The notes under the pieces: model-generated | Database searches by the model: none | What the model was told of the DNA's origin: nothing | The model's input: the letters and a program-made list of their open reading frames with translations, nothing else | In this document: in pieces, positions 3 through 9,965 of the stretch | How positions within the stretch are numbered: the stretch's first letter is position 1 | Layout of the letters: the number at the start of each line of letters is the position of its first letter | Program-made: the position numbers and the translations under genes | IMG/VR virus record: IMGVR_UViG_3300006332_000267 | Coordinates: 1-20,978 of that record | Source: a virus | Strand: one strand, 5' to 3' | Length of the DNA: 20,978 nucleotides

Positions 3-284
3 CCCAACCCTGACGACTGCTTGGCTAATCCGGAGACAGCGCCGGTGCCTGACAAGTCTAAGCCGTCAGTACTGTACGCCCTAGTGGGCAGCCTGGCTCA
101 CCGAGCCAAGCCGTCAACGGCTGAAGGGCTGGTCACATACCTTGCACGAATCCCTGCAGAGTTCGGGGTGATGTGCATGAAGGATGCACTATTCCGCACC
201 AACAAGGATACGAAGTTCCGAAACACAGGGGCGGTAACCAAATGGTGCGTCAACAACGCCGAGCTAATGAGCGCGGCACACTAA
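3..284 (+). CDS. MoxR-like AAA+ ATPase, C-terminal end (5' partial)
   Basis: The reading frame is open to the left edge of the window, so only the last ~93 residues are seen and the real start lies outside; the TTG at 21 is probably not the start. The visible part carries a helical stretch (TYLARIPAEFGVMCMKDALF) and then a short charged tail, which fits the C-terminal lid of phage MoxR-family AAA+ ATPases. No Walker motif lies in this fragment, so the call rests on that tail and on the next gene, four bases downstream, which encodes the VWA-type partner usually found beside MoxR ATPases. Such ATPases are thought to act as chaperones or remodelling factors with their VWA partner. The family call is an inference; that this is the end of a gene translated together with the next is clear. 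Confidence 0.6.
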   Translation, partial: PNPDDCLANPETAPVPDKSKPSVLYALVGSLAHRAKPSTAEGLVTYLARIPAEFGVMCMKDALFRTNKDTKFRNTGAVTKWCVNNAELMSAAH

Positions 285-288
285 TCAA

Positions 289-1479
289 ATGAAGAAGAGC
301 ACTAAAATAGAAAAAGGGGTGGCCATGCTCATTGCGGGCCAGCCCTTTTTCGCATCAATACTGCTCGGGATGGAGAGGGTAGAGGATGAGAGCATCCCCA
401 CTATGGCAACGGACGGGACGCGCCTCTACTACAATCCCGAGTTCTCAAACAAGCTCACGATTGCGGAGCTTGAAGGCGTGCTGTGCCACGAGGCACTGCA
501 TCCAGCCTTCTTGCACCACACCAGAAGGAATGGGCGTGAGCCTGTTAAATGGAACATGGCGTGTGACTACGCCATCAACCCTGTTGTCCTAGATGCCGGC
601 CTTACGTTGCCTGAAGGCGCGCTCATCGACCGACAATATAGCGGTATGTCTGCTGAAAAGATATACGACCTGATGCCCGACCCGCCCATCGACCTTCCTA
701 TCGGAAGTGAGGGAGGGGAGGGCACGGGAGGCAATCAAAAGCCGAACTCAAGCACAGGGCATTTTGATAAGCCCTGCCCTTGGGGGATGGTGAATGATGC
801 AGAGAACCCTGACGGCTCGGCTAAGACTGATGCCCAGAAGAAGGAGATTGAGCAACGCTGGAAGGTGAAGCTCAAGCAGGCGGCCGCAACTGCCAAGCGG
901 CAGGGCAAGCTGCCAGCAGGGATGCAGCGACTGATTGACGAGCTGATGGAGCCCAAGCTTGATTGGAGAACTATCCTTTCCCGCTGGGCTGGCGAGCTGT
1001 CACGGTGTGACTACTCCTTCCGGTTTCCCAACCAGCGCTATGCACAAGGCGGCTTCATGCTGCCATCGCTACGCAAGGAGACCATCGGCAAGGTTGTGTT
1101 CGGAATGGACACGTCTGGCTCGATGGGCGGAGACCAGTTGAGAGAGATCATTAGCGAAGTATATGGCGCTATGCAGGAGTACGAGAAGGACGGGGTATCC
1201 CCTGAGTTGACCGTGCTTTGGTGTGACACTGAAGTGCATGAGCAGCAGGTGTCCGACCCCAGTGAGTTCAATCCAGTTGGAGGCGGAGGGACGCTGTTCA
1301 AGCCGGTGTTCGACCACATAGCCGATCATGTTGATAACCCACGGGCAGTGGTGTACTTGACTGATGGGTACTGCGACGACTTCGACTACACCCCCTCCTG
1401 CCCAGTGCTATGGGGTCTTACTGAGCGCAACGACACCTTCAATCCACCCTTCGGGGAGGTAATGGTGATCAATCAATGA
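289..1479 (+). CDS. Metallopeptidase-like / VWA-like (MIDAS) protein, partner of MoxR ATPase
   Basis: This 396-residue protein has two parts. Residues ~1-130 resemble the putative metallopeptidase domain of the DUF2201 family. They include the zinc-site motif HEALH at 67-71 and a conserved acidic context around D93 (ACDYAINP). A Gly/Pro-rich linker at ~135-175 leads to a basic helical segment. From ~266 on there is a VWA-like domain with a MIDAS motif, DTSGS at 274-278, a Thr in GGGGT (~335) and an LTDG motif near 357-360. MIDAS sites bind a divalent metal and a protein partner. With the upstream MoxR-like ATPase it probably forms an ATP-driven remodelling or chaperone pair whose substrate is unknown; whether HEALH is proteolytically active cannot be told. 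No Shine-Dalgarno is evident before the ATG, so translation may be coupled to the upstream gene. Confidence 0.85.
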   Translation: MKKSTKIEKGVAMLIAGQPFFASILLGMERVEDESIPTMATDGTRLYYNPEFSNKLTIAELEGVLCHEALHPAFLHHTRRNGREPVKWNMACDYAINPVVLDAGLTLPEGALIDRQYSGMSAEKIYDLMPDPPIDLPIGSEGGEGTGGNQKPNSSTGHFDKPCPWGMVNDAENPDGSAKTDAQKKEIEQRWKVKLKQAAATAKRQGKLPAGMQRLIDELMEPKLDWRTILSRWAGELSRCDYSFRFPNQRYAQGGFMLPSLRKETIGKVVFGMDTSGSMGGDQLREIISEVYGAMQEYEKDGVSPELTVLWCDTEVHEQQVSDPSEFNPVGGGGTLFKPVFDHIADHVDNPRAVVYLTDGYCDDFDYTPSCPVLWGLTERNDTFNPPFGEVMVINQ

Positions 1480-1721
1480 CCCCATTGTTCGACAGCGGCC
1501 GGCCGCCAAGTTCTGACGAGGTGGCTGATATGTATATGCAGATCTCCAGAGAGCTTAACACCCTGCGAGCAGCGCAAATGGTGGCCAGCATGAAGTCTGG
1601 AGACAGGAAGGCAGTGGCTACATCTATCGGCATACTGATGATGATAGCAAAGCTTGGCCCTGAAATGGAGAGGGCCATAGATAGAGAAGAGGAGGAACAG
1701 AAAAAGTTAATTAGAAACTGA
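1476..1721 (+). CDS. Hypothetical small helical protein
   Basis: This 81-residue protein is not recognised. Its ATG overlaps the stop of the VWA gene in an ATGA arrangement, so it is probably translated by re-initiation. A GGGAGGTAA stretch lies ~15 bases upstream, rather far for an ordinary ribosome site. The protein looks almost entirely helical: residues ~12-40 hold SSDEVADMYMQISRELNTLR, and the C-terminus is a highly charged run rich in Glu and Lys (REEEEQKK). No cysteines, signal peptide or membrane segment are visible. Its position directly behind the ATPase/VWA pair makes an accessory role for that pair possible, but nothing in the sequence shows it. Confidence 0.7.
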   Translation: MTPLFDSGRPPSSDEVADMYMQISRELNTLRAAQMVASMKSGDRKAVATSIGILMMIAKLGPEMERAIDREEEEQKKLIRN

Positions 1722-6788: not shown

Positions 6789-7691
6789 ATGAAGAAGTTA
6801 ACTAAGCAGATAGTTTGCGAGGACTGCGGGTGCAAGGAGACAGTTAAGTTTTGGAACCACAGATCGACCCGATGCAAAAAGTGCCAGAGTAAAATTGATA
6901 GGGAGCGGAGCCGATTAAGCTCCCAACGGTTCCACGATAAAAAAAGAAAAGAAGCACTTAAGGATCACCAATTAGTAAACGGAAATGTACCGATCACTCA
7001 CAAGCTAATGATCTGTAAGATGTGTGGAGAGGGGTTTGCGGGCAGGAAAAACATGCAGGTCTTTTGTGCTCCCTGTGGCAAGGTGAACCGCGAAGAATAC
7101 CTTTCTAAATACAGCAAGTCGAAATGGAAAGAGGTTCTGGCAGACCCAGTGCTGCACGCAAAGCACAAATCAGCTGCCAATAAATACAGAGATAAAAACA
7201 AGGATGCAATCAACAAGAGAAAGAGGGAGGAAAACTCAACCCCGGAAGGCAAGGCCAAGCAAAAAGTAAGAAGCGATAGGTGGAACCAAAACAATCCTGG
7301 GGCTGCTGCCAAAAGAATGACTGAATGGATTAAGAATAACAGGGAGAGGCACAATAAGGCTGCAAGGGAGAGAGGCAAAAGGCAAGGCTACCCCCATCAA
7401 CGGAAGCATCAAGTAAGAAAGCGTGAAGCCTTGATAAGGACTTCATGTGATAAATCAATTAAAGCAATCTACAAAAAGTGCAGAGCCATCACTGAGGAAA
7501 CAGGCATTGACCACCATGTTGACCATATTATTCCACTAGCTATCGGGGGCGCACACCATCAAGACAATTTAAGGATCATCACTGCTAAGGAAAACTTGAG
7601 AAAACACTCGAATTATGACCCCGCCCTCGGGGGCGTATGGGCTGACAATGAGTTGGCAAAAACAAACCAGAAGGAATGGAGGGTTAAATGA
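6789..7691 (+). CDS. HNH endonuclease with two N-terminal zinc-binding cysteine pairs
   Basis: This 300-residue protein ends with a clear HNH domain at ~241-275: HHVDHIIPL, then G-hxHH-QDNLRI and ENLRKHSN, with H246, H257, N260 and N269 as likely active-site or metal residues. Upstream are two treble-clef or zinc-ribbon-like units, Cys pairs at 10/13 and 29/32 and at 76/79 and 93/96, and a long very basic helical middle (~100-215), suited to DNA binding. This build is typical of free-standing HNH homing endonucleases of phages, which cut DNA at a target and spread by repair. The ribosome site GAGGAGGG precedes the ATG. The gene is visibly AT-richer than flanking modules. Its last codons form a variant of the junction element. 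Confidence 0.88.
   Translation: MKKLTKQIVCEDCGCKETVKFWNHRSTRCKKCQSKIDRERSRLSSQRFHDKKRKEALKDHQLVNGNVPITHKLMICKMCGEGFAGRKNMQVFCAPCGKVNREEYLSKYSKSKWKEVLADPVLHAKHKSAANKYRDKNKDAINKRKREENSTPEGKAKQKVRSDRWNQNNPGAAAKRMTEWIKNNRERHNKAARERGKRQGYPHQRKHQVRKREALIRTSCDKSIKAIYKKCRAITEETGIDHHVDHIIPLAIGGAHHQDNLRIITAKENLRKHSNYDPALGGVWADNELAKTNQKEWRVK
7677..7690 (+). repeat. Variant junction element (TGGAGGGTTAAATG)
   Basis: One base different from the corresponding part of copy 1 (TGGAGGATTAAATG). Here it is read in another frame: it encodes the HNH C-terminus Trp-Arg-Val-Lys with an ATGA stop-start overlap. Confidence 0.5.
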
Positions 7692-8532: not shown

Positions 8533-8929
8533 CGAAGTGCCAGAGCAAGACCTGCAATCGGCGTACGCCAATGACAGGCCACTGCAGCGACTAGCCGAGC
8601 AGCGCCTTGAGGTGCTGGCCAGGTTTGAGAAGGAGGAGGAAGTGAGGCGCGAAAAAGCAGCCAAGCTGAGAGAGGAGGCCAACGAGATCAAGAAGGATTG
8701 GACTGAGCTGGGGAGGCAGATCAAGGCGCTCAGGGCTAGGGCGAATAGGCTGGCGAAGAAGCGTCAGCCACCAAGGATGACCGAGATAAACCGAAGGGTC
8801 AGGAGAAGGCAGGGAATCGTCAGGGAACAGGCCTTAATGAAGTACCTAAGGAGCCAGAAGAACGTGTTCCTTAAGCACTGGAACAAGAAGCAGAAGGATA
8901 ACAGTCATGAAGATAGTGAAGAAGCCTAA
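8522..8929 (+). CDS. Basic coiled-coil protein
   Basis: This 135-residue gene starts with GTG, supported by GGAG four bases upstream. Residues ~28-85 form a long charged heptad-like helix (RFEKEEEVRREKAAKLREEA, then IKKDWTELGRQIKALRARANRLAKK), a probable coiled coil. A basic Arg/Lys-rich segment follows (NRRVRRRQGIVREQ), and the tail is acidic. Its strong charge and position between an HTH gene and the integrase suggest a DNA-associated or assembly role, but no family is recognised. The 3' end overlaps the integrase by 23 bases. Confidence 0.7.
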   Translation: MKFDEVPEQDLQSAYANDRPLQRLAEQRLEVLARFEKEEEVRREKAAKLREEANEIKKDWTELGRQIKALRARANRLAKKRQPPRMTEINRRVRRRQGIVREQALMKYLRSQKNVFLKHWNKKQKDNSHEDSEEA

Positions 8930-9965
8930 CGGGTATTACTACGCTCGTTTCAAGGGCGGAGACGGCCGCCAGAAAGAGGTGTCAACGAGAGTTAAAAACA
9001 AAGCGCGAGCAGAGGCAGTGGTGAGGGAGTCAAACCTTGAATCCCTTGAGCTGGCCGCCCAAGCGCAGGTGCTTACGGCTGACGCAATCACCAGAATCGT
9101 CGCAGGAAAGAAGGTCACTCTCTCAGAGGCCCTTGAGAAGTGGGGCGACAGGCTCCGCGACCAAGGCAGGTCAGACAAGACGATACATAATAAGATTCAG
9201 TGTGTTACTGGGTGGGTGAATGCGAAGGGGCTCGGATCGCGCCCCCCTGCATTTGTTAACATGAGGCACGTTTCCAGCTATGTGAACGACCCATCAAAGG
9301 GAACTAAGGCTTCCTCACGAAAGACTGTTTTGTCGTCAATCTCCACGTTTCTAGAGTTTTGTTGCTCTGAGGGGTGGGCGGTGGGCAACCCAGCCAAAGG
9401 GATTGAGGTGTCTTTAGACAGCCTCAGCCACAAGCAAAAGGAACCGAGGAAGGTTAATTTATTTCTGGAAAGCGAGGTGGAGCTGATTGAGTTAAACTCA
9501 GGCAAGCCCTTCTGGGCTTTCGCCGCTAGGCTTAGCTACGAAACCGGCCTCAGGCTGGGTGATATATGCCAGCTTGAGTGGGACAGTGTTGGCGAAGAGG
9601 GCATTGTCGTCTGGACGGACAAGCGCAACAAGAGGGTAGGCCCATTCCCAATGTCTGAAAAACTGGCATCACTGCTTGCCAAGGTTCCAGCTAAATCAAA
9701 AAGGTACATATTCCCCGAGCAGAGGAACATATACATATCTACCACTAGGAGAGCCCTTCTCTCTGTGCAGTTTAAGAACCTGTGCGCCCAGCTTGGCATT
9801 GAGGGTAAGACATTTCATAGCTTGCGCCACACCTATGCCTCACGTACTTATAAGGAGGAGAAGGAGAGCTTAATAGCCCGACTTCAGAAGGAACTGGCAG
9901 AGCTTTCCGTTGCGGAAAACCTTGGCCATTCAGGCACAAAGACCACAAAGGGGTACATCCATTAG
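8907..9965 (+). CDS. int: Tyrosine recombinase / phage integrase
   Basis: This 352-residue protein joins phage and host DNA at att sites by strand exchange through a tyrosine-DNA intermediate. An N-terminal arm-type binding region (MKIVKKPNGYYYARFKGGDG) is followed by a SAM-like core-binding domain at ~70-160. The catalytic domain then shows all expected residues: R216 (TGLRLGD), the beta-hairpin Lys (K239 or K242), H304 and R307 in HSLRH, H341 in LGHSG and the nucleophile Y350 in KGYIH, two residues from the end. The gene seems intact. AAGGA lies nine bases before the ATG. Its last 56 bases overlap the putative small terminase gene, an unusual place for an integrase; attP may lie at or near this end. 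No att repeat can be identified within this window. Confidence 0.95.
   Translation: MKIVKKPNGYYYARFKGGDGRQKEVSTRVKNKARAEAVVRESNLESLELAAQAQVLTADAITRIVAGKKVTLSEALEKWGDRLRDQGRSDKTIHNKIQCVTGWVNAKGLGSRPPAFVNMRHVSSYVNDPSKGTKASSRKTVLSSISTFLEFCCSEGWAVGNPAKGIEVSLDSLSHKQKEPRKVNLFLESEVELIELNSGKPFWAFAARLSYETGLRLGDICQLEWDSVGEEGIVVWTDKRNKRVGPFPMSEKLASLLAKVPAKSKRYIFPEQRNIYISTTRRALLSVQFKNLCAQLGIEGKTFHSLRHTYASRTYKEEKESLIARLQKELAELSVAENLGHSGTKTTKGYIH

Follow-up and report, generated by a model that had tools for sequence, protein, structure and literature searches.

The left edge of the window, which is a whole virus record of 20,978 bases, carries two adjacent genes, one for a MoxR-like AAA+ ATPase and one for a DUF2201 protein in which a zincin-like metallopeptidase domain is fused to a VWA domain. 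With a probability of roughly 0.45, we read this pair as an ATP-driven AAA+ remodelling machine with its own peptidase, working in the replication phase inside the infected cell, rather than as a part of the virion. The MoxR-family ATPase would form a ring and hydrolyse ATP, the VWA domain of the partner would grip a client protein through its MIDAS metal and dock it on the ring, and the zincin domain at the partner's N-terminus would cleave or trim what is presented there; the client would be a phage or host protein complex, acted on during the DNA-replication phase. The domains and motifs, a near-invariant HExxH (one viral exception), the N-x3-D motif, a complete MIDAS, the linkage of the two genes and the predicted structure support the machine, and the middle transcripts of phage N4 (PMC4193335, in excerpt) and replication and nucleotide neighbours support the replication phase; weak zincin matches, variants without the glutamate and, in several phages, the proximity of virion genes count against it. 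The features of the pair in the window are the following.

3..284, + strand: MoxR-like AAA+ ATPase, C-terminal 93 residues, cut by the contig edge (PHROG 1297 'ATPase', phrog_1297, profile positions 266-354 of 356, E 1.5e-11; 48/92 residues identical to the L026 ATPase).
289..1479, + strand: DUF2201 protein of 396 aa that combines a zincin-like metallopeptidase domain with a VWA-like domain (PF13203, E 8.8e-50; PF09967, E 1.2e-17; phrog_1314, E 9.8e-102; AlphaFold mean pLDDT 85.6).
487..501, + strand: HEALH, residues 67-71, putative metal site and catalytic Glu (in a predicted helix, 58-73; HExxH conserved).
553..579, + strand: N89-x-A-x-D93-x-x-I-N97, candidate third metal ligand, with D93 favoured and N89 as the alternative (in the next helix, 85-102; a similar motif in viral CobT).
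1108..1122, + strand: MIDAS motif DTSGS, residues 274-278 (conserved; VWA fold at about 265-396, Z about 13).
1291..1293, + strand: T335, further MIDAS residue (identical in 18/18 and 81/81 sequences).
1363..1365, + strand: D359, further MIDAS residue (identical in 18/18 and 81/81 sequences).
1476..1721, + strand: 81-aa ORF, its start codon overlapping the VWA gene's stop (phrog_1368, a weak match, E 0.0038).

The ATPase frame runs off the contig on its 5' side, leaving only its C-terminal 93 codons in the window, and its Walker motifs are outside the view because the record ends at the left edge. Alignment with the C-terminal part of the 338-aa ATPase of L026, a viral contig in which this gene is complete, gave 52% identity and a score of 251, against 56 for the best of 200 shuffles; the DUF2201 protein of L026 is 60% identical to that of the window, and further small genes are common to both. 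A gap of 4 bases separates the two genes of the pair, and the VWA stop and the next start overlap in the ATGA at 1476-1479, so the 81-aa ORF is possibly co-translated with the VWA gene. Pfam-A assigned the 396-aa protein to DUF2201_N (putative metallopeptidase, 170.2 bits, cut-off 23.2) and to the VWA-like DUF2201 domain (64.6 bits, cut-off 26.4).

A preliminary description, drawn from the letters and open reading frames of the window, had proposed a MoxR-like ATPase end next to a protein with HEALH at residues 67-71 and DTSGS at 274-278, both parts being probably functional. The two motifs lie exactly there in the 396-aa ORF, and the partner was borne out by the PHROG match together with the identity to the L026 ATPase. 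Conservation was read in a diverse set of 18 sequences (the window protein and 17 relatives, from 15 phages and 2 IMG/VR contigs), in which H67, E68, H71, N89, A91, D274, S276, S278, G334, T335 and D359 were identical in 18/18, and D93 in 17/18; the exception is the 641-aa relative from Staphylococcus phage S6 (L013:3753-5678), where His, another metal ligand, replaces the candidate Asp. In the larger viral set N89, D93, T335 and D359 were each found in 81/81. T335 and D359 are presumably the further MIDAS residues of the window protein and would complete, with D274, S276 and S278, the MIDAS set of the VWA domain.

Across the kept viral loci HExxH was present in 79/80 and DxSxS in 80/80, the one exception being HSVMH in L031; both halves of the protein are conserved. 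Among the kept loci from GTDB genome contigs the counts were 74/80 for HExxH and 79/80 for DxSxS; one exception begins at the motif (L182) and another is apparently frame-broken in its VWA part (L171). The Glu was lost with both His kept in the viral L031 and in the genome contigs L106, L107, L108, L176 and L185 (HSVMH, HLVMH, HIAMH, HLAMH, HLVLH and HLVTH), and two of these variants belong to archaeal contigs, L176 and L185, in which by eye the Asp at the D93 position is kept and the Asn at the N89 position is lost. Natural loss of the Glu with both His retained suggests that peptidase activity is not always needed.

An AlphaFold model of the whole 396-aa protein, built with 46 sequences, had the mean pLDDT listed above, and its C-terminal part shows a clear predicted VWA fold, with residues from about 265 to 396 resembling VWA and integrin I domains. 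The Foldseek matches of the whole model included a solved structure of a NorQ-NorD VWA complex (PDB 9qh8). By description, ATV p618/p892, RavA-ViaA and NorQ-NorD all combine a MoxR-type ATPase with a VWA partner, as in the window; none of them is known to have a fused zincin domain. Since VWA domains filled the whole-model search, the N-terminal half (262 residues) was predicted alone (pLDDT 87.2), with HEALH in the helix at 58-73 and D93 in the helix at 85-102. Foldseek returned 16 chains at E <=10 for this half, 10 of them zincins; the first seven were selecase and jannalysin, the best E was 0.3 (selecase), which is weak, and 6/16 chains were unrelated proteins with a probability of <=0.04. 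VIA-align compared 50 chains, 28 of which had Z >=2, and the best Z was 5.6, again weak (Z under 8); the entries listed were zincins in 19/19 cases, including minigluzincins, an M48-type peptidase, ArdC, a DNA-protein-crosslink protease, MATCAP and PprI. Some of these zincin assignments follow the titles of the entries. The family profile also matched the M48 peptidase 3c37 around HExxH (E 0.0075), and those of the top matches among viral models that bear a name are metallopeptidase, VWA-like or uncharacterised proteins. The HExxH half thus weakly resembles zincins in its predicted fold, and the possibility raised in the preliminary description that HEALH might prove not to be a metal site did not come true in these searches, all of whose zincin matches are weak.

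The DUF2201 protein was found by tblastn in 596/50,697 phage records at E 1e-5, each at <60% identity, and in 761 at E 1e-3. It was also present in 117/72,556 plasmid records, in at least 597 IMG/VR stretches among the 599 matches listed, and in 102/182 matched GTDB stretches (genome contigs, in which the genes may be chromosomal or belong to prophages). PF13203 scored above its cut-off in 16/17 of the relatives' records, Staphylococcus phage S6 being the exception, versus 2/14 named control genomes. The phrog_1297 profile matched in 17/17 of the relatives' records but also in 14/14 cell controls, so that only the position of the match, not the match alone, is specific evidence.

For linkage, a profile was built from 14 viral ATPases, one of which (L026) also belongs to the tested set. 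An ATPase lay upstream on the same strand in 72/80 viral loci, the remaining 8 having <=2,078 bases upstream, and in 69/69 of the loci with >2.1 kb upstream, although some viral loci are near-identical and these counts are therefore not all independent. Absence of an AAA+ gene upstream had been named beforehand as the outcome that would speak against the pair; the closest relative, L026, has a complete AAA+ gene upstream, as have all 69 viral loci with enough sequence. In the GTDB loci the nearest ATPase match was on the same strand in 73/80, and 6/7 misses have <=355 bases upstream; L176 is a true miss for a nearby same-strand ATPase. The two genes are about 3.7 kb apart and divergent in two vequintavirus loci (L012, L014), and about 4.4 kb apart in phage G. 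Strict patterns recovered Walker A in 65/72 and Walker B in 67/72 of the relatives' ATPases, the Walker A variant of L026 being missed by the pattern. The ATPase gene of phages Pollock and JA-1 is interrupted, in both at the same two positions of the profile, and Rfam places a group I intron at the first of these breaks in each phage.

L006:5747-6099: group I intron (RF00028) in the MoxR gene, Pollock.
L016:2203-2447: group I intron (RF00028) in the MoxR gene, JA-1.

A third gene near the pair was matched by its profile in 34/80 viral and 9/80 GTDB loci, and in L026 it lies upstream; its name, DUF3150, is the annotation of one record. It had no match in PHROG, NCBIfam or PADLOC, and the L002 copy had none in Pfam either. 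In 5/7 inspected loci that lack this gene, the gap holds a different gene of about 226-235 codons. Examples of the third gene are given below.

L026:2645-3505, third gene.
L002:8436-9290, third gene.
L003:2009-2896, third gene.
L007:2987-3859, third gene.

The preliminary description had implied that the pair was new, and this part did not stand, in contrast to the partner, the MIDAS, the zincin-like domain and the conservation: the pair is of an already known kind, published for N4-like and for jumbo phages. The genes gp24 and gp25 are described as core genes of 25 N4-like phages and as middle transcripts in N4 (PMC4193335, in excerpt), and a 2020 analysis has both in a table, with gp25 shared by one of its three methods (PMC7650795, in excerpt). 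In jumbo phages a MoxR chaperone has been reported whose vWA co-chaperone carries a metallopeptidase at its N-terminus, and a part in virion assembly was proposed (Iyer 2021, PMC7824862, in excerpt). N4 gp24/gp25 and their Schitoviridae orthologues belong to the same two families as the window pair and have the same order; gp25 matches DUF2201_N and DUF2201, and gp24 matches phrog_1297 (E 2.8e-138), although gp25 is 29% identical to the window protein; in gp25 the motif is HELWH, at 75-79 with the Glu at 76, and the MIDAS Asp is residue 261. The window phage may not be N4-like and has an integrase and a terminase downstream. By description, the group 2.2 jumbo phages share the architecture and the partner, but they have large genomes, and the role proposed there is virion assembly (PMC7824862, in excerpt). 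The pair is a core pair of a large phage group that includes N4, and the open-licence PubMed Central literature yielded no published demonstration of its function, by experiment or biochemistry. A CRISPRi-ART paper has no gp24 hit, and its gp25 hits belong to another phage (PMC11879866, in excerpt); another source, in excerpt, describes an HExxH motif in the N4 vRNAP itself (PMC12633501). N4 grows on laboratory E. coli, so the role of the pair is directly testable.

In N4, gp24/gp25 lie between the RNA polymerase subunits on their upstream side and the dCTP deaminase, rII, helicase and polymerase genes on their downstream side, in a region that also holds gp17, annotated as head decoration. 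Genes annotated for virion proteins are close neighbours of the pair in CBB, S-TIM5 and Av-05, where they encode tail and internal head proteins in the last, and are separated from it by some genes in N4 (gp17), ort11 and the Dinoroseobacter phage. A scan of neighbours covered 150/421 ORFs of >=120 aa in the viral loci, taken in random order after exclusion of duplicates and of ORFs >600 aa. The commonest named PHROG families, among the best 25 of 105 families, were primase/helicase, primase and DnaB (3 each), followed by exonuclease, methyltransferase and ParB-like (2 each), with 0 structural families among the same best 25; in Pfam, a nucleotide-modification domain was the commonest (6 neighbours), and DnaB was found in 3.

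The main rival explanation makes the pair a chaperone of virion assembly whose peptidase would process structural proteins; we regard it as rather unlikely but as the alternative to be taken most seriously. It is the role proposed for the jumbo phages (Iyer 2021, PMC7824862, in excerpt), it has a precedent in ATV p618/p892, a pair described without a peptidase and inferred from interactions (PMC4124505, in excerpt), and it agrees with the annotated virion genes that adjoin the pair's region in CBB, Av-05 and S-TIM5 or lie further off in N4, ort11 and the Dinoroseobacter phage. Replication and nucleotide genes, however, also surround the pair in N4, phiFa, ort11 and the Dinoroseobacter phage, and the scanned neighbours contained no structural family among the best 25 of 105. 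Phage RPP1 enters on both sides: a second structural module with mid-phase expression lies near its gp24/gp25 homologues, so that middle timing is compatible with a virion role, whereas the virion proteins of RPP1 and RLP1 are described near, not as, the gp24/gp25 homologues (PMC4193335, in excerpt).

The middle position in N4 would also suit host takeover or counter-defence, in which the pair would attack a host complex or protect the phage from one and the zincin would cut a host protein; the structural neighbours include a zincin with an antirestriction role, ArdC (Z 4.8). A range of phage hosts from Thermus to Vibrio, together with genome contigs and plasmids, is unlike a host-specific weapon, and PADLOC, which covers defence and not counter-defence, gave 0 matches; this explanation is judged improbable. 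Still lower in our estimate stands a dead peptidase domain, kept as a metal-binding or structural scaffold in a pair that would be a pure chaperone: in its favour, L031, L106, L107, L108, L176 and L185 have naturally lost the catalytic Glu while retaining both His, but 79/80 viral and 74/80 genome-contig proteins have an intact HExxH. Least probable is a CobS/CobT cobaltochelatase-like pair that boosts host vitamin B12. The AAA+/VWA plan is the same, and such a role has been published for viral cobST (PMC8651126, in excerpt) and for a 'CobS' of a Schitoviridae phage (PMC11705849, in excerpt); against this, the window protein has no NCBIfam CobT match, its profile resembles that of true CobT only at the MIDAS stretch (probability 1.6), and true CobT has no HExxH.

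The comparison with CobT was extended to the viral proteins of that name. According to PMC8651126 (in excerpt), cobST is widespread in tailed viruses, cyanophage cobT is usually mis-annotated as a peptidase, and a B12 role was proposed. Viral CobS/CobT were tested from the cyanophages Syn19 and Mae-Yong1326-1, SSU5, Vibrio JPW and Gordonia FlyingTortilla. In 5/6 fetched AAA+ loci the neighbour carried HExxH, then N-x3-D-x2-I-E, then a C-terminal MIDAS; in the crAss-like phage cr118_1 (L024) no HExxH/MIDAS neighbour was found within 8.4 kb. HExxH, N-x3-D-x2-I-E and the MIDAS residues of viral CobT were invariant in a 16-sequence alignment, and in the cyanophage sequence at its head the spacings from the first His (22 and 26) are the same as in the window protein, the SSU5-type spacings being longer. 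Relatives of two viral CobT proteins, which as kin of two phages are not independent, had HExxH in 51/54 and the MIDAS in 52/54, and in the three without HExxH the match starts at or after the motif.

True CobT, detected through PF06213 in 27/41 alphaproteobacterial genomes, had HExxH in 0/22 proteins read. Reading of the matched frame gave 0/25 loci, 18 of them with the MIDAS DNSGS, and strand-aware reading added L192, L195, L196 and L206, again with 0; the count leaves out L194 and L201 (unread) and L210 (partial). Profiles of viral and true CobT were joined via the VWA half (E 9e-28), those of DUF2201 and viral CobT matched weakly and in the HExxH region only (P 5e-4, probability 31), and those of DUF2201 and true CobT showed nothing beyond the MIDAS stretch. 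The NCBIfam CobT model (cut-off 759) gave 1002 bits for one true CobT and 84 for SSU5, and it did not match the cyanophage and window proteins.

Viral CobS/CobT resemble the window pair in having an AAA+ gene next to one whose product carries HExxH, N-x3-D-x2-I and, towards its C-terminus, a MIDAS, and differ in that viral CobT is longer and has a CobT-like VWA half; bacterial CobT (TIGR01651, PDB 9uka) shares with the window protein the AAA+ partner and a VWA domain with a MIDAS (DNSGS in CobT), but it has no HExxH. The CobT name has some basis for the viral proteins, yet these keep a peptidase-type site that is absent from true CobT, a contrast that we did not find stated in the open-licence PubMed Central literature. 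As the viral 'CobT' keeps HExxH and true CobT does not, the B12 reading of viral cobST is cast into doubt and deserves a test. It is conceivable, though we hold it only tentatively, that a single machine spread across viruses has two branches, the DUF2201/MoxR pairs and viral 'cobST'; in it, an AAA+ ring together with a zincin-VWA partner would remodel and cut a replication- or transcription-stage complex. On this view viral cobST, a 'vitamin B12 auxiliary gene' that is core in T4-like cyanophages, would be mainly this machine, and bacterial CobT would descend from it or be its sister, with a decayed peptidase site.

Other identities were tried and rejected for the window pair. A cobaltochelatase was discarded, with no NCBIfam match at E 0.01 (TIGR01651 equivalog cut-off 759 bits) and no CobT profile similarity beyond the MIDAS, as was a defence component, with no PADLOC match at E 0.01 for 5 proteins. 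Both phrog_1314 and RefSeq records call the protein an HNH endonuclease, but neither the window protein nor N4 gp25 has an HNH Pfam match at E 0.1, and the name is apparently a mistake that has been passed on. Among the matches listed, 'HNH endonuclease' stood on 9/9 RefSeq (NC_) rows at E 1e-5 and on 12/12 at E 1e-3.

Further right, the window has a terminase, a weak Pfam match to an SU10 adaptor and an integrase. The latter is a tyrosine recombinase at 8907-9965 (Phage_integrase, E 9e-14), suggesting that the window phage may be temperate, and a possible HNH/endonuclease VII-like protein of 300 aa is encoded at 6789-7691 (phrog_1035, E 8.3e-8; Pfam HNH slightly below the cut-off).
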